DNA of 64,000 nucleotides, from contig DATMES010000002.1 of the NCBI GenBank assembly GCA_035556555.1, forward strand, positions 62,001 through 126,000. The letters run 5' to 3'. Under the pieces are notes generated by a model that worked only from the letters and a program-made list of their open reading frames with translations, ran no database searches and was not told the origin of the DNA. Below, piece by piece: positions 24,048-63,740 of the stretch; the first letter of the stretch is position 1; every line of letters begins with the position of its first letter. The position numbers and the translations under genes were made by a program. This stretch comes from Frankiaceae bacterium (GTDB lineage Bacteria; Actinomycetota; Actinomycetes; BP-191).

Positions 24048-24167
24048 TGTTTCTGTCACCTCGAAGTGACATCTGCGCGAACCCGCGAACTCGCTGGCCT
24101 CGACGCGTAACAAGCGGCGCGTTCCTGCCGTATGGCTTGGTGACGAGCCGAGACGACCGGGGAGCCC

Positions 24168-24407
24168 GTGGTGCGCAGAGTGGCAGCAGGATTGGCGGTG
24201 GCCGCCGCCCTGGCGGCGCCGGGTACGGCACGAGCGGACGAGCTGTGCGTGCGGGTCACCGTCACGGACTTCGCGACCGGGGCGCATGTCCTCATGCCGC
24301 CGTGCGTGGAGGTGCCGCTGTCCCTCACCTACCAGGAGCGGTACGTCCGCTTCCTGCCGTGGATCGAAGTGCGGGTGGAGTTCACTCCTCCGTCGGACAG
24401 TCCCTGA
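24168..24407 (+). CDS. Small secreted two-cysteine protein
   Basis: 79 residues from GTG 24168 (GGGGAG site). A clear signal peptide (VRRVAAGLAVAAALAAPGTARA) precedes a mature part of about 55 residues with two Cys (DELCVRV and MPPCVEV), rich in beta-prone residues (SLTYQERYVRFLPWIEVRVEF). No family recognised. Its 3' end overlaps the end of the convergent sigma-factor gene by 26 nt. Confidence 0.65.
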   Translation: MVRRVAAGLAVAAALAAPGTARADELCVRVTVTDFATGAHVLMPPCVEVPLSLTYQERYVRFLPWIEVRVEFTPPSDSP

Positions 24408-25422
24408 GTCCGAGCGTGCACGTGAACGGGGTCGACTCCCAGTACTCACCCACAGTCAGATCGCCCAGGGGCGTCGGCACCGTGACCTCACGGCGGCTCG
24501 GCTTGTCCGGGTCGTTCACCGGGTCGCCGTCCGAGCTGATACGCACCACGGGCAGCTCGGGGCCGCGCGGGCCGTCGGTGCCCGGGCGGTGCGTCACCGG
24601 CGTCGTCGCGGTAGCGGCACGGACGGGGGCGGCGGCCGGACGGGCGGCGGCGACGGCCCCGACAGGGCGGGTCGCGCGGTCCACGGCCTGGACGACCTCG
24701 CCGCGCGGCGGCGCGAGAGCGGCGGCCGTGGCCGGGGCTGCGGGGCCGCCGAGCACCGTCGCCACGGTCGCGGCGCCGGCCACGGCCATGACGCCGAACG
24801 CCGTGGCGCCGGCCGGACCCGCCGCCGCCGAGAGGTCGTGGAGGCGCCGGGTCAGCCGGTCGAACCGCGCGTGCAGCGCGACGGGCACGATGCCGAGGGT
24901 GGCGCCGACGCGCTGCAGCTCGGCGGCGAGCCGGCCGCGGGCGCGGTGGAGCTGCTGGCGTAGCGCGTTGGGCGTGACGTCGCGGAGGGCGGCCATCTCG
25001 GTGTACGCCATGCCCTCGAGCTCGTGGTCGACGAGCAGCTGCCTGTCGGCGGCGCGGAGGCGCTTCATGGCCGTCCGCAGCGAGTGCCGGCGCTCGAGGA
25101 CGAGGACGGCGTCGTACGTCACGTCCTCGACGCCCCCGACGGCCTCCGGCAGCTCGTCGGTGGAGACGAGGCGGCGGTTGCGGCGCAGGGAGTCGATGGC
25201 GGCGTTGCGGGCGGTGGTGTTGACCCACGGCCACGGGTCGCGGTGCGGGTCGAAGGCGTCGTAGTTGGTGTAGCAGCGCGCCATCGTCTCCTGCGCGATC
25301 TCCTCCGCGTCGCACGCGGGGAAGTGCTTCCTGATCAGCGCGAGCACGCGGACGAAGTACTCCTGGAAGAACTCGTCGAAGCCGGGCGGCCCGTCGGGAC
25401 GGGGCAGCGGGGTGACGGTCAT
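24382..25422 (-). CDS. ECF-type sigma factor with C-terminal membrane segment and outer domain
   Basis: 346 residues from ATG 25422. Sigma region 2 (about 14-85: FFQEYFVRVLALIRKHF, AEEIAQETMARCY, PWPWVNTTARNAAIDSLRR) and region 4 (about 115-172: LRAADRQLLVDHELEGMAYTEMA, then NALRQQLHRARGRL) are typical. Unusually, region 4 is followed by a membrane segment (about 202-226, GATAFGVMAVAGAATVATVLGG), a long Ala/Pro-rich stretch and a small C-terminal part with a Cys pair (CTLGLRDC). The sigma factor would be tethered to the membrane, with its tail outside as a possible sensor. No separate anti-sigma gene is nearby. Divergent from the GAF histidine kinase. Confidence 0.85.
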   Translation of the reverse strand: MTVTPLPRPDGPPGFDEFFQEYFVRVLALIRKHFPACDAEEIAQETMARCYTNYDAFDPHRDPWPWVNTTARNAAIDSLRRNRRLVSTDELPEAVGGVEDVTYDAVLVLERRHSLRTAMKRLRAADRQLLVDHELEGMAYTEMAALRDVTPNALRQQLHRARGRLAAELQRVGATLGIVPVALHARFDRLTRRLHDLSAAAGPAGATAFGVMAVAGAATVATVLGGPAAPATAAALAPPRGEVVQAVDRATRPVGAVAAARPAAAPVRAATATTPVTHRPGTDGPRGPELPVVRISSDGDPVNDPDKPSRREVTVPTPLGDLTVGEYWESTPFTCTLGLRDCPTEE

Positions 25423-38313: not shown

Positions 38314-38791
38314 ACGGGGCGTCGCGGCGCTCGCCGGGCTGCTCGTGGTCGTCGGCGCGGTGCTCGCGGTACGCCTCGCCACCGCCTCGGGCTCCCCGCT
38401 CACGCAGGAGGAGCTGGTGGCGTACCAGGCCGCCGTCCACCCGCCGCTGTCCGAGGGCGGCCGGCTCGTGCAGGAGCGGCTCAAGCCCGCCGCCGGCGCC
38501 ACGACCCCGGTCGCCGACGCCGAGGGCTGGGCGCGCGAGCTCGAGGACGTCCGCGCGAAGGTCGCGGCCGTGGAGCCGCCGTCGCAGCTCGCGGAGGCGC
38601 ACCGGCTCTTCGACGCGGCGCTGGCGGCGTACGCGGAGACCGCGCGGCTCGTCGCCGACGGCAGCCCCGGCGCGGTGGCGACGGGGGAGCGTGCCGACAG
38701 GACGTACGACGACGCGAGCCGCATCCTCCAGCGCGAACGCCGCCGCCTCGGCCTCGGCCCGACCGCGGAGTTCCCCGACCCGGAGGCGTAA
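38306..38791 (+). CDS. Exported or membrane-anchored small helical protein, end of the transporter operon
   Basis: 161 residues from GTG 38306, overlapping the livF stop. One N-terminal hydrophobic segment (GVAALAGLLVVVGAVLAVRLA) followed by a helical domain (TQEELVAYQAAVHPPLSEGGRLVQERL, WARELEDVRAKVAAVEPPSQLAEAHRLFDAALAAYAETARL). No family is recognised. The overlap with livF suggests a part in the same uptake system, perhaps an outer accessory subunit. Its TAA stop is also the first bases of the shared GTAATCAACGG leader of the next gene. Confidence 0.78.
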   Translation: MSRRGVAALAGLLVVVGAVLAVRLATASGSPLTQEELVAYQAAVHPPLSEGGRLVQERLKPAAGATTPVADAEGWARELEDVRAKVAAVEPPSQLAEAHRLFDAALAAYAETARLVADGSPGAVATGERADRTYDDASRILQRERRRLGLGPTAEFPDPEA

Positions 38792-38854
38792 TCAACGGGC
38801 CTCTCGCCGTGTGGCGTCAGGCGCCCCGTAGCGCCGCGACCTCCGAGGAGACCC
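38788..38854 (+). promoter_or_regulatory. Shared GTAATCAACGG leader, copy 1
   Basis: GTAATCAACGG (38788-38798), then CGTGTG at +20 (38808), then a GC-rich part and CCGAGGAGAC ribosome site before the GTG at 38855. The same order and spacing recur at 41336 and 41792 before two related genes. It overlaps the TAA stop of the preceding gene. Could be a promoter or an RNA element. Confidence 0.7.
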
Positions 38855-39061
38855 GTGTCCCCGCTTCGCCCGACGTTCGCCCTGCTCGCCGCCGGCCTCG
38901 CGCTCTGTGCCGTCCCCGCCGGCGCGGAGTGCGTCACGTACGAGCCAGGCCCGACGATGAACTACCCGGACTCGCCGGTGCCGCTGCCGTCGACGCCGCT
39001 GCACGTCGTGGCGATCTACGGTCCGGGCACGCTCAGCGTGACGCCTACCGACTGCCCCTGA
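38855..39061 (+). CDS. PTDC-family secreted microprotein A
   Basis: 68 residues from GTG 38855. Signal peptide VSPLRPTFALLAAGLALCAVPAGA, mature part of about 44 residues: ECVTYEPGPTMNYPDSP, a variable Pro-rich stretch, then YGPGTLSVTPTDCP. Two cysteines, one at each end of the mature chain, suggest a single closing disulphide. Same signature as genes at 41410, 41598, 41865 and 42187. No known family. Confidence 0.82.
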   Translation: MSPLRPTFALLAAGLALCAVPAGAECVTYEPGPTMNYPDSPVPLPSTPLHVVAIYGPGTLSVTPTDCP

Positions 39062-39064
39062 CCG

Positions 39065-41320
39065 TCAGGTCACGGTGAGCTTCAGCGTGCGGCCGGTGCC
39101 GGGCGCGTGGTCTGGGGCGCCGCGCCAGTGGATCCGGTACAGGTACGTCCCCCGCGCGGCCGGCGTGACGTAGCGCGAGTACCTGCTCGTCGGCGACAGC
39201 GCCGAGCGGACGACGTTGCGCCACCCGATGCCGGTGTACCAGCGCTGCAGCCAGTACGTCGTCCCCGGGTGCGCCGGCGTGACGGCGCCGTAGATCCGCG
39301 CGGTCGACCCGAGCGGCATGCTCGCCGTCGACAGCGTCGAGGTCACCTTCGCCGCGACGACGACGGTCTGCGCGGGCTGCGTCGCGGGCGCGTACGACGC
39401 GTCGCCGGCCCACACCCACCGCACGGACACGGCGGCGGAGGGCTTGAACGTCACCCGCACCCGCCCGTCCGCGCCGGTGACGGCGGTCGTGATCGCCGGC
39501 CAGGTCGTGGTGCCGTTGCGCTGGCCCTGCAGCGTCAGCGTCCGCCCCGGCACACCGGCCCCGCCGGAGACGAGCCGGCCGGTCACGGTGACCGTGGCGC
39601 CGTACACGACGCTCTTCGGCGAGACCCCGAGCGTGACCGCGGCCGGCGCCGGCGTCGTCGGGATCACGAGGAGCGTGATGCTGTTCGCGGGGTACGACGC
39701 CGACACCGCGCCGCCGGTGACCGGCACGTCGGCGAGGTGCTGGATCGCACCGAGGTCGGCCGCCGAGTACCGCCACACCCGCGCCCCCGCGCCGAACGAC
39801 GCGCCCGACAGCCCCACAGGCGACGACAGCTCCTCGCCGGTCTTGTTGACGACCATGACGGTGACGGCGCCGTCGGAGGAGCGCTGCGCGGCGTACGCCG
39901 CGAGCCGGCCCTGGTCACCCGACGTCGCGCGGACCGACGTGTCGCCGAAGCGGCCGCCGCTGCCGTCGTACTCGCGGTACATCCGGAACGCGTACGCCCC
40001 CGGGTCCTCGTCGTCGAGCCCGCCCCAGAGCATCGCGGCGTCGAGGCGCTCTCGGCCGAATATGCCGAGGACGTCGGCCTGCGCGAGGGCGCCGTTCATC
40101 GACTCGTGGCCGCCGAAGTCGTACTCGCTGACCATCGTCCGCGTGCCCGGGTAGCGCGCAGCGACGATCTCGCGCATCCACGGGATGAGCCTGATCGGCG
40201 GGGCGCCGACGGCGCCGCCGATCCACGACTCGTCGGTGTACGTGGGGTCCCACAGGCTGCGCGTCGACCGCAGCCGCAGCGCCTGCGTCTCCGCCGACCC
40301 CGCGCTCGCCAGGGCGACGCCGGTGGCCTGCGGGTAGTAGTGCTCGTCGAACACGTCGAGCAGCCGCTTGCCTGCCGTGGCCGACGCCGCCTTCATCTCC
40401 GCGAGGTACCACTCGGCCATCGGCACGCCGCCGTGCGCCGTACGGTCCGGGCCGTTGCCGCAGCCCTCGCTGTCGGCGGGGGAGTAGAAGTACGCGCACC
40501 AGCCCCAGTCGCCGGGGCCGCTCACCGCCGCGGCCGCGTCGGCGGCCTTGACCGCCTTGGCCGTCGCGACGGAGCGGTCGCGGAGCTGGTCGTACGTCAC
40601 CGGGGCCGGGTGCACGTCGCGGTGCGTGTCGTCCCAGAGCGCGGGCTCGTTGTCGAGCGCGTACGTCCGCACCCCCGTCGTGGCAGCCGGGCCGTGCGTC
40701 GCGACGAGGTGCTCGACCATCGTCTTCACGAACGCCGGCCCCGCCGCGACCGACGTGTCCAGCGGGTCGTTGCCGGTGATCTCGGCGCCGCCGGGAGAGG
40801 CGAGCCCGTTGCCGCAGTCGGGGTCCCACTGCGAGTCGGTGCCGGTCTGCGCGCCGTACTTCGAGACCGTGAACCCGCACGCGAACGGGTGCGTGGCCGG
40901 CGAGTCCTTGGCGACCCAGCCGGTCATCGGCACGGTGACGACGGGGCGTACGCCGCGTGAGAGGTCGCCCGCGACCTTGCTGTCGAGCGAGTCGCCGGGG
41001 TCGCGGACGATGTTCTCGAAGTACCAGTCGCTCCCGGTGTTGTGCGTGTTGTTGGTCCAGTTGTAGCGGCTCGTCGCGTTGCCGCCCCAGCGGTCTGCCG
41101 TGAGGCCCAGCGAGGTCTGGAGGGATGCGGGCGCGTAGTTCATGCCGTAGACGTCGGGGCTGATGGGGTGGCGGCCGGCGGCGACGTCCACGGCGAGCGC
41201 CGGACCGGCTGTGGCGAGCGCGGGGGCGGCGGGAGCCAGCGCGACGGCGAGCGCGCAGGCGACGACGGCGGCGAGACGGGGCACACCAGCAGTGTCGGCG
41301 TTCGCGCGGTCCGGGTTCAC
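39065..41320 (-). CDS. Secreted GH44-type glycoside hydrolase with C-terminal Ig-like domains
   Basis: 751 residues from GTG 41320; GTG 41284 (PRLAAVVACALAVALA) gives a tidier signal peptide and is an equal candidate. The catalytic part (about 40-430) fits the GH44 endoglucanase/xyloglucanase family: PDVYGMNYAP, DRWGGNATSRYNW, the proton donor in LDNEPALW and the nucleophile in VSEYDFGGHES. A beta-sandwich finishes the GH fold (about 430-510). Two Ig-like domains follow (VSPKSVVYGATVTVTGRL; TSTLSTASMPLGSTARIYGAV), probably for cell-wall or sugar attachment. It lies on the opposite strand inside the microprotein cluster, its stop 3 bp from the stop of microprotein A. Confidence 0.88.
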   Translation of the reverse strand: MNPDRANADTAGVPRLAAVVACALAVALAPAAPALATAGPALAVDVAAGRHPISPDVYGMNYAPASLQTSLGLTADRWGGNATSRYNWTNNTHNTGSDWYFENIVRDPGDSLDSKVAGDLSRGVRPVVTVPMTGWVAKDSPATHPFACGFTVSKYGAQTGTDSQWDPDCGNGLASPGGAEITGNDPLDTSVAAGPAFVKTMVEHLVATHGPAATTGVRTYALDNEPALWDDTHRDVHPAPVTYDQLRDRSVATAKAVKAADAAAAVSGPGDWGWCAYFYSPADSEGCGNGPDRTAHGGVPMAEWYLAEMKAASATAGKRLLDVFDEHYYPQATGVALASAGSAETQALRLRSTRSLWDPTYTDESWIGGAVGAPPIRLIPWMREIVAARYPGTRTMVSEYDFGGHESMNGALAQADVLGIFGRERLDAAMLWGGLDDEDPGAYAFRMYREYDGSGGRFGDTSVRATSGDQGRLAAYAAQRSSDGAVTVMVVNKTGEELSSPVGLSGASFGAGARVWRYSAADLGAIQHLADVPVTGGAVSASYPANSITLLVIPTTPAPAAVTLGVSPKSVVYGATVTVTGRLVSGGAGVPGRTLTLQGQRNGTTTWPAITTAVTGADGRVRVTFKPSAAVSVRWVWAGDASYAPATQPAQTVVVAAKVTSTLSTASMPLGSTARIYGAVTPAHPGTTYWLQRWYTGIGWRNVVRSALSPTSRYSRYVTPAARGTYLYRIHWRGAPDHAPGTGRTLKLTVT

Positions 41321-41335
41321 GGCTTCGCCCGATCT

Positions 41336-41409
41336 GTAATCAACGGCACCGGCGCCGTGTGCCGACCGGTGCCATGTCCGGCGCCGCCGAAACCCCGAGG
41401 AGAAACGCC
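41336..41409 (+). promoter_or_regulatory. Shared GTAATCAACGG leader, copy 2
   Basis: GTAATCAACGG (41336-41346), CGTGTG at +20 (41356), GCCGACCGGTGCC, then CCCCGAGGAGAAACGCC and the TTG start at 41410. Here it is not tied to a stop codon, since the neighbour is the divergent GH44 gene; this shows the motif is kept for itself. Confidence 0.72.
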
Positions 41410-41601
41410 TTGTCCGTCCGTCCCGTCCTCGCCGCGGCGGCGCTGCTCGCCGCCGGCCTCGCCACCGCCGCCCCCGCGCACGCCGCGTGCTACTCGTACC
41501 GGCCGGGCAGCCCCGTCGTCTACCGGCGAATCGGCGACAACGCCGTGCTCGTCGTCTACGGCCCCGGCACCCTCACCGTCACGCCGACGGACTGCCCGTG
41601 A
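41410..41601 (+). CDS. PTDC-family secreted microprotein B
   Basis: 63 residues from TTG 41410 (GAGGAG site). Signal peptide LSVRPVLAAAALLAAGLATAAPAHA, mature part ACYSYRPGSPVVYRRIG then VVYGPGTLTVTPTDCP, ending at the same residue as microprotein A. The TGA overlaps the GTG of microprotein C, so B and C are translated together. Confidence 0.82.
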   Translation: MSVRPVLAAAALLAAGLATAAPAHAACYSYRPGSPVVYRRIGDNAVLVVYGPGTLTVTPTDCP

Positions 41602-41795
41602 ACGCCGCCCGGTTGCTCGCCGTCGCGGCGCTCGCGCTCGCCGCGTACGCCGCCGGTCCCGCGCACGCCGAGTGCGTGACGTACACCCCGGGACCGGTGA
41701 TCGACGGGCCGGACGTGCCGCCGATCCAGTACGTGGTGCGCGGCCCCGGCACCGTCAGCGTCACGCCCACCGACTGCCCTCCCGTCGCCCGGTAA
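41598..41795 (+). CDS. PTDC-family secreted microprotein C
   Basis: 65 residues from GTG 41598, overlapping the stop of B. Signal peptide VNAARLLAVAALALAAYAAGPAHA, mature ECVTYTPGPVIDGPDVPP, then VRGPGTVSVTPTDCPPVAR. The N-terminal ECVTYxPGP is almost identical to A, the C-terminal motif to both. Its TAA stop begins the next shared leader. Confidence 0.82.
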   Translation: MNAARLLAVAALALAAYAAGPAHAECVTYTPGPVIDGPDVPPIQYVVRGPGTVSVTPTDCPPVAR

Positions 41796-41864
41796 TCAAC
41801 GGCGCTTCCGCCCGTGTGCCGTCCGGTCGCCCACCTCCGGGCGCCACGACAAGGAGGAATCCCA
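41792..41864 (+). promoter_or_regulatory. Shared GTAATCAACGG leader, copy 3
   Basis: GTAATCAACGG (41792-41802), CGTGTG at +21 (41813), GCCGTCCGGTCGCC, GGGCGCCACGA, then AAGGAGGAATCCC and GTG 41865. Overlaps the stop codon of microprotein C. Confidence 0.72.
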
Positions 41865-42089
41865 GTGCGCAAGATCTCGACGGTCGTCGCCGCCGCCGCT
41901 CTCATGGGCGGGGCGTTCGTGCTGACCGCGACCCCGGCCTCGGCCGAGTGCCTGACCTACACGGGCACGACCAACCCGATCGTCACCGTCCAGGGCCCCT
42001 ACGGGCCCAACACGGTCTACGCCCCCGGCGACGTCGACGTCGACCCGGCGGACTGCTACAAGACGGTCGTCGACCTCGTCGGCGCGTAA
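41865..42089 (+). CDS. PTDC-family secreted microprotein D (divergent)
   Basis: 74 residues from GTG 41865 (AGGAGG). Signal peptide VRKISTVVAAAALMGGAFVLTATPASA, mature ECLTYTGTTNPIVTVQGPYGPN, then APGDVDVDPADCYKTVVDLVGA. The family motif is relaxed (PGDVDVDPADC for PGTLSVTPTDC) and a short helix-like tail is added. Confidence 0.8.
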   Translation: MRKISTVVAAAALMGGAFVLTATPASAECLTYTGTTNPIVTVQGPYGPNTVYAPGDVDVDPADCYKTVVDLVGA

Positions 42090-42097
42090 GCATCACC

Positions 42098-42128
42098 CGA
42101 GAGGGGCGGACCCGGTCCGCCCCTCTCG
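42098..42128 (+). terminator. Terminator after microprotein D
   Basis: Perfect 13-bp arms (42098-42110 CGAGAGGGGCGGA; 42116-42128) with a 5-nt loop. A second short hairpin CGGCGCCCC/GGGGCGCCG (about 42147-42165) lies in the leader of the next gene. Confidence 0.85.
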
Positions 42129-42186
42129 GCATGTCATCCCCAGCAACGGCGCCCCCGGGGCGCCGCCGACCAGAAGGACAACCCTC

Positions 42187-42417
42187 GTGCGCATGCTCTC
42201 CCTCCGGCTCGCCGCCGGTGCCGTCGCCGCCGCCGCGCTCGCCGTCTCGGCGCCCGCCGCCTCGGCCGGCTGCGTCTCGGCCCCCGGCTCGACCGAGCCG
42301 CTCATCGAGATCTACAAGCCGGTCCACACGACGGTCAACGACCCCGGCACCATCACGATCTCGCCGACCGACTGCCTCACCGACGCCAAGGAAGCCCTCG
42401 AGGTCATCGGGCGCTAG
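42187..42417 (+). CDS. PTDC-family secreted microprotein E (divergent)
   Basis: 76 residues from GTG 42187 (AGAAGGA site). Signal peptide ending SAPAASA, mature GCVSAPGSTEPLIEIYKP, then NDPGTITISPTDCLTDAKEALEVIGR. It keeps the two cysteines and PGT...PTDC, and like D has a C-terminal helical extension. Confidence 0.8.
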   Translation: MRMLSLRLAAGAVAAAALAVSAPAASAGCVSAPGSTEPLIEIYKPVHTTVNDPGTITISPTDCLTDAKEALEVIGR

Positions 42418-63587: not shown

Positions 63588-63740
63588 GTGCGTACCCGCC
63601 TGCTGCTCGCCACCGCCCTCGCCCTGCCGCTGCTCGGCGGCGTCGCCGACGCCGGCCCCCGCGAGGACTGCTGGGACATCGGCCTCGGCTTCCGCGTCTC
63701 CGCGCTCGTCTGCAACAAACTCCCCGGCGACACCCGCTAA
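63588..63740 (+). CDS. 50-residue secreted two-cysteine peptide
   Basis: GTG 63588 with a CCCGGAGG site, TAA at 63738. Signal peptide VRTRLLLATALALPLLGGVADA, mature part of about 28 residues: GPREDCWDIGLGFRVSALVCNKLPGDTR. Two Cys 14 residues apart. In size and layout it recalls the PTDC microproteins but lacks their motif. Flanked by hairpin repeats B4 and B5. Confidence 0.68.
   Translation: MRTRLLLATALALPLLGGVADAGPREDCWDIGLGFRVSALVCNKLPGDTR

Follow-up and report, generated by a model that had tools for sequence, protein, structure and literature searches.

In Actinobacteria, ECF52 (SCO4117) and ECF48/ECF53 join an extracytoplasmic function (ECF) sigma domain to a transmembrane (TM) helix and a proline-rich outer extension (PMC5826349, PMC8999054). 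Activation of ECF52 by proteolysis of the extension is a proposed and supported model (PMC5826349, PMC8999054). IutY (ECF243) of Pseudomonas putida is also an ECF sigma factor fused to a membrane part, and it is freed by regulated intramembrane proteolysis (PMC8999054). In Bacillus subtilis, secreted lysozyme binds RsiV outside the cell, which leads to release of the ECF factor sigma V (PMC4183432). Streptomyces chaplins are short secreted proteins with several gene copies, under an ECF sigma factor (PMC4255298). Here, we analyzed 64,000 nucleotides of a Frankiaceae bacterium (assembly GCA_035556555.1, contig DATMES010000002.1, positions 62,001 to 126,000 of the forward strand), referred to as the window; coordinates are those of the window unless a contig or locus is named. 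It contains five genes, A to E, for tiny secreted proteins with a PGT..PTDC signature and, about 13 kb from them, a gene for a membrane-tethered ECF sigma factor beside another tiny secreted protein. It is possible, if still short of probable, that the five proteins are products of a regulon whose ECF sigma factor is tethered to the membrane and gated by secreted partners.

The tethered sigma factors of this genome resemble ECF52, ECF48, and ECF53 in build, but their tails end in a Cys pair and a small secreted Cys gene adjoins each of them. The zinc finger that follows the sigma domain of ECF52 was not found here (Pfam, E 0.1, six tethered sigma factors), and neither was its outer carbohydrate-binding module, as no Pfam domain was present in the outer tails of the six that were scanned. 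IutY differs in serving iron-uptake cell-surface signaling and in having no tiny secreted Cys proteins as partners. RsiV differs in being a separate anti-sigma factor, with a ligand that comes from another organism, and the chaplins carry a different motif from that of A to E.

Results

Five genes for tiny secreted proteins

All five genes are on the + strand. Gene A (38855 to 39061) encodes a 68-residue precursor with the predicted mature chain ECVTYEPG...GPGTLSVTPTDCP, and gene B (41410 to 41601) encodes a 63-residue precursor with the mature chain ACYSYRPG...GPGTLTVTPTDCP. Gene C (41598 to 41795; 65 residues) is coupled to B, its start overlapping the B stop codon by 4 nucleotides (GTGA). 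Genes D (41865 to 42089; 74 residues) and E (42187 to 42417; 76 residues) have relaxed forms of the motif (APGDVDVDPADC and DPGTITISPTDC, respectively), each followed by a C-terminal extension. The start codon is TTG in B and GTG in the others, and ribosome sites (GAGGAG, as in A, AGGAGG, or AAGGA) precede A, B, D, and E. An earlier reading of the DNA without database searches (the sequence-only reading) had pointed out these frames, and their positions, their lengths of 63 to 76 residues, the B/C overlap, and the relaxed motif of D and E are as it described.

Signal peptides and TM helices were called throughout with our own hydropathy rules, not with a dedicated predictor. By these rules, all five precursors carry a Sec-type signal peptide and an AxA cleavage site, and the predicted mature chain has its first Cys at position 2. 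The Sec signal peptides and the shared C-terminal motif of the sequence-only reading are borne out. The residues before this Cys are AGAE, AHAA, AHAE, ASAE, and ASAG. Position -3 is never L, V, or I, so there is no lipobox and A to E are not lipoproteins. Invariant alignment columns include C26, G32, P57, G58, P64, D66, and C67 in gene A numbering. Every mature chain has two Cys, and the single disulfide that had been suggested is likely: it would probably join the Cys at residue 2 to the one that ends PGTxxVTPTDC. AlphaFold models of the mature chains were unusable (pLDDT 47).

The frames are very short and have no homologues outside the genome, as might be expected of chance or spurious open reading frames (ORFs). 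We consider this explanation highly improbable given the signal peptides, the ribosome sites, the codon composition, the synonymous excess in the motif of A, B, and C, the five paralogues, and an upstream element that is shared among them (see below). GC content in A, B, D, and E is 0.93 to 0.99 at third codon positions versus 0.53 to 0.62 at second positions. Across the 12 codons of the C-terminal motif, the ratio of synonymous to nonsynonymous differences is 6:1 between A and B and 5:1 between A and C. Because these differences are mostly synonymous, the motif of A, B, and C is conserved as protein. Other pairs have no such excess, and the case for reality therefore depends on A, B, and C together with codon composition. 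A profile of the mature chains recovered all five within the genome (E-values 1e-10 to 1e-19), which agrees with the proposed gene multiplication; since the profile was trained on these same five, the result speaks for their coherence but is not independent evidence. We conclude that all five ORFs are real genes.

Two other features lie among them. An inverted repeat (AGAGGGGCGGAC/GTCCGCCCCTCT; 42100 to 42126, +), read from the sequence 3' of D and before E, is a possible terminator, though it has no clear T run. On the opposite strand between A and B-E (39065 to 41320) is a gene for a secreted GH44-type glycoside hydrolase, whose best NCBIfam match, EpsB (7e-118), is below the EpsB cut-off.

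Search for relatives

As the sequence-only reading had expected, A to E do not belong to a known family. Nothing scored over the cut-off in Pfam or NCBIfam, and there was no PDB match and no meaningful match in PHROGs or PADLOC. The family profile found nothing convincing in 393 other genomes of the class, including two congeners (G001 and G002), and had zero matches in the contigs of the genome collection. Class-wide matches in family f19 span only profile positions 14 to 34 inside long frames and were rejected as pieces of larger proteins. Within the searched data, the PGT..PTDC family is confined to this genome. The sequence-only reading had proposed such a profile search and taken a lack of outside homologues as evidence against its family. 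No such homologues were found, yet confinement to one genome does not make A to E artefacts: their codon use, synonymous changes, and common upstream elements all indicate genuine genes. The closest named relative by glutamate dehydrogenase is the uncultured Frankiales metagenome-assembled genome RYN_151 (81%).

A shared upstream element

A bipartite, promoter-like element precedes A (GTAATCAACGGGCCTCTCGCCGTGTG; 38788 to 38813, +; 67 nucleotides upstream of the gene), B/C (41336 to 41361, +), and D (41792 to 41818, +; overlapping the C stop codon). These three copies have in common GTAATCAACGG followed by CCGTGTG, and the first half has no other copy in the 3.98 Mb of the genome. An element of the same type (GTAACAAGCGGCGCGTTCCTGCCGTATG; 24107 to 24134, +) lies before gene 24168, which encodes the tiny secreted protein beside the sigma factor gene. 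All four are exact matches in a genome-wide search with GTAAY-N13-17-CCGTRTG, which gave six matches in 3.98 Mb versus one for a reversed control. The other two are at a small secreted gene (C1:149281) and in the 3' flank of a sigma-like gene (C1:148290), where only a 32-codon ORF without a signal peptide lies downstream. Both of the small secreted genes with the element, 24168 and C1:149281, abut a TM-bearing ECF sigma factor. In 19 other genomes, the pattern occurred at background level.

Because the exact form had been generalized after inspection, the scan was repeated with a matrix built from A, B, and D alone (1.15 Mb, both strands). A, B, and D took the first three ranks, followed by the C1 sigma flank (rank 4), the C1 small gene (rank 8), and gene 24168 (rank 17). 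These patterns suggest that a promoter of ECF type (GTAAY, 13 to 17 nucleotides, CCGTRTG) probably drives transcription of A, B-C, and D. The element was also considered as an RNA hairpin, and this was rejected (z -0.9 to -2.4, no common fold by eye).

Membrane-tethered sigma factors and their neighbors

The sigma factor gene in the window (24382 to 25422, -) encodes a protein with a C-terminal TM helix and an outer tail of about 118 residues ending STPFTCTLGLRDCPTEE. Its sigma domains match PF04542 (Sigma70_r2; 4e-12) and PF08281 (Sigma70_r4_2; 3e-7), both over the cut-off, as is TIGR02937 (80 bits). It overlaps tail to tail with gene 24168 (24168 to 24407, +), which encodes a 79-residue secreted two-Cys protein (mature DELCVRVTV...PPCVEV...) of what we term the sigma-partner family. 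Among the sigma factors whose frame was read, at least eight have a TM segment after the sigma domain and an outer tail of 97 to 201 residues with two or four Cys near the end. Each has one hydrophobic segment, and the tails, delimited by hydropathy only, are 8 to 25% Pro. In those scanned, Pfam and NCBIfam confirmed the sigma domain and showed no domain in the tail. Altogether, about 60 sigma-70 region-2 matches occur in this 4-Mb genome, and several further frames are long enough for tethered forms. Two tethered sigma-like proteins (L223 8313-9287 and L050 93-1307) have a degenerate region 4, with a GTAATCAC..CGTGTR stretch at the stop codon, and may have lost the ability to bind promoters.

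A secreted Cys gene directly adjoins all eight tethered sigma factors, six by a fixed 400-nucleotide criterion and two by inspection. (The partner at C27:60453 is just past the edge of locus L021, and the partner at C27:124375, at 150 residues, extends just outside the 400-nucleotide limit.) Only 1 of 34 other sigma genes scored for an adjacent secreted Cys gene, and that neighbor is not a tiny Cys protein. We extended the analysis to congeners with a profile of four partners, with sigma genes located by a separate profile. Seven of the 15 best partner matches outside the training set were on the opposite strand, 366 to 491 nucleotides from a sigma-TM match (rough binomial 1e-14), a spacing close to the extent of a sigma tail. 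Six of these tail-to-tail pairs are in G001 and G002, where they were located by the coordinates of profile matches, and one more is in this genome. The adjacency is therefore seen in three species. Relatives of the partner family also occur beyond the genus, in family f13 (G069, G097, G129, and G169) and once in f16. AlphaFold gave an all-beta model of the partner family (pLDDT 68), with no PDB fold match below E 1.

The partners share with A to E a short chain and a Cys pair, and two of them have the same upstream element. A to E might thus themselves be ligands, several paralogues for one tethered sigma factor. We consider this distinctly unlikely, as A to E are not adjacent to a sigma factor and are unrelated to the partner profile. 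Homology between the two families had been suggested by a single pairwise z of 3.7 and was rejected, since profile comparison did not uphold it.

A repertoire of small secreted proteins

A looser profile that included the signal peptides retrieved further tiny secreted Cys ORFs across the genus. Sampled DNA was scanned with a rule for small secreted genes based on signal peptide, ribosome site, length, and codon composition; for this genome, 1.15 Mb of the 3.98 Mb was read. There were 39 matches, four of which were set aside as spurious by inspection, leaving 35. Contigs picked without a prior match contained 18 small secreted genes in about 0.64 Mb (28 per Mb). A control scan of about fifteen other genomes of the class gave 2 matches in 0.8 Mb, both apparently spurious frames. 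The number of Cys was 2, 4, or 6 in 35 of 35 proteins and odd in none; even numbers are predicted for about 64% of mycobacterial exported proteins (PMC12421883). By extrapolation, the whole genome would hold roughly a hundred tiny secreted proteins with even Cys numbers. Their families are mostly unrelated to each other and frequently occur as tandem pairs, with few sequences in common even within the genus. A to E belong to this large repertoire of tiny, probably disulfide-bearing secreted proteins, and surface, signal, and antimicrobial roles outside the cell are all possible for them.

Two explanations of the repertoire have to be weighed here. One is that the proteins are diffusible antimicrobials or inter-strain weapons, a fast-turning-over set of disulfide mini-proteins. 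Numerous lineage-specific, mostly unrelated families with tandem copies would fit. Even so, we doubt it strongly: no immunity-like or dedicated export gene was seen adjoining A to E, there was no PADLOC match, and some members are paired with sigma factors, which points to signaling. The other is that they assemble on the cell or spore surface, with the sigma link reflecting developmental regulation, like chaplins and rodlins under BldN. Short two-Cys secreted chains, tandem genes, and an ECF-type element are consistent with this, and chaplin genes are directly activated by BldN in S. venezuelae (PMC4255298). However, the mature chains of A to E are Pro/Gly-rich, and tens of unrelated families are unlike a coat. 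The three tethered sigma factors for which the BldN family (TIGR02952) was among the matches listed score 34.6, 73.5, and 40.2 bits, far below its cut-off of 206 bits. The chaplin domain PF03777 had 0 matches in the genome, but it also had 0 in all control genomes, which shows little. On balance, a coat seems unlikely, if less so than weapons.

Other observations concern the same class of genes. A further tiny secreted two-Cys ORF at 63588 to 63740 (+; GPREDCWDIGLGFRVSALVCNKLPGDTR) is unrelated in sequence to A to E. In congener G001, a five-gene tiny secreted two-Cys array (L058 3170-4221, contig C46) encodes proteins ending ..WIC, ..WVC, ..YMVC, ..YMVC, and ..YCDY, and no tethered sigma factor was seen nearby. 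A CCCT[AC] string lies about 20 to 30 nucleotides before some start codons, for example, upstream of 63588. It precedes 18 of the 35 small secreted genes, compared with 16 of 59 longer genes that encode a signal peptide and 15 of 254 that do not, and it may be a feature of the start sites or leaders of genes for secreted proteins here. We rejected the idea that one element serves every small gene, as the remaining genes have only this leader string in common.

Discussion

The sequence-only reading had included neither the even-Cys repertoire, nor the shared upstream element, nor the link to membrane-tethered ECF sigma factors. With these in place, the PGT..PTDC proteins may be outputs of a tethered sigma regulon. 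The ECF domain would be held at the membrane by its TM helix, beyond which the Pro-rich outer tail extends to its terminal Cys pair. The adjacent gene would supply a cognate tiny secreted partner that contacts the tail and controls proteolytic release of the sigma domain. The released sigma factor would then transcribe its partner's gene as well as other genes for small secreted proteins, including the PGT..PTDC set. Release of membrane-fused ECF factors by proteolysis has precedents in IutY and, as a supported model, in ECF52 (PMC8999054), and gating of an ECF pathway by a secreted protein has one in lysozyme and RsiV (PMC4183432).

Several points weigh against this model. No tethered sigma factor abuts A to E, and the link consists of the shared element and a sigma gene 13 kb away. 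The exact pattern was widened after upstream regions had been looked at, which leaves the A/B/D matrix scan as the only held-out test. Gene E has no upstream element, and only two of eight sigma partners carry one; therefore, the element cannot serve all sigma-partner pairs. The PGT and partner profiles do not match each other (hhalign probability 0.2, 4 aligned columns). At C1 and C27:60453, the sigma domain is weak or degenerate, and these two factors may not bind promoters because region 4 is degenerate. Lastly, VKOR was not found in a search of the genome.

A bolder version is a self-contained receptor-ligand system, in which each tethered sigma factor would read its own adjacent tiny disulfide protein through the Cys-tipped tail and, once released, expand the repertoire, including the PGT..PTDC proteins. 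We regard this version as doubtful, though a little less so than a surface coat. If it is true, the cell would have many parallel autocrine or kin-sensing channels.

Tiny secreted genes beside a Cys-tailed, membrane-anchored transcription factor suggest an undescribed outside-to-inside signaling system. A single genome may carry, by extrapolation, about a hundred tiny secreted even-Cys proteins, mostly outside any family tested. Membrane-fused ECF sigma factors are already known, but for most of them the signal sensed by the outer tail is not. The adjacent secreted Cys gene provides a concrete ligand candidate for each tethered sigma factor examined, which makes the question directly testable.

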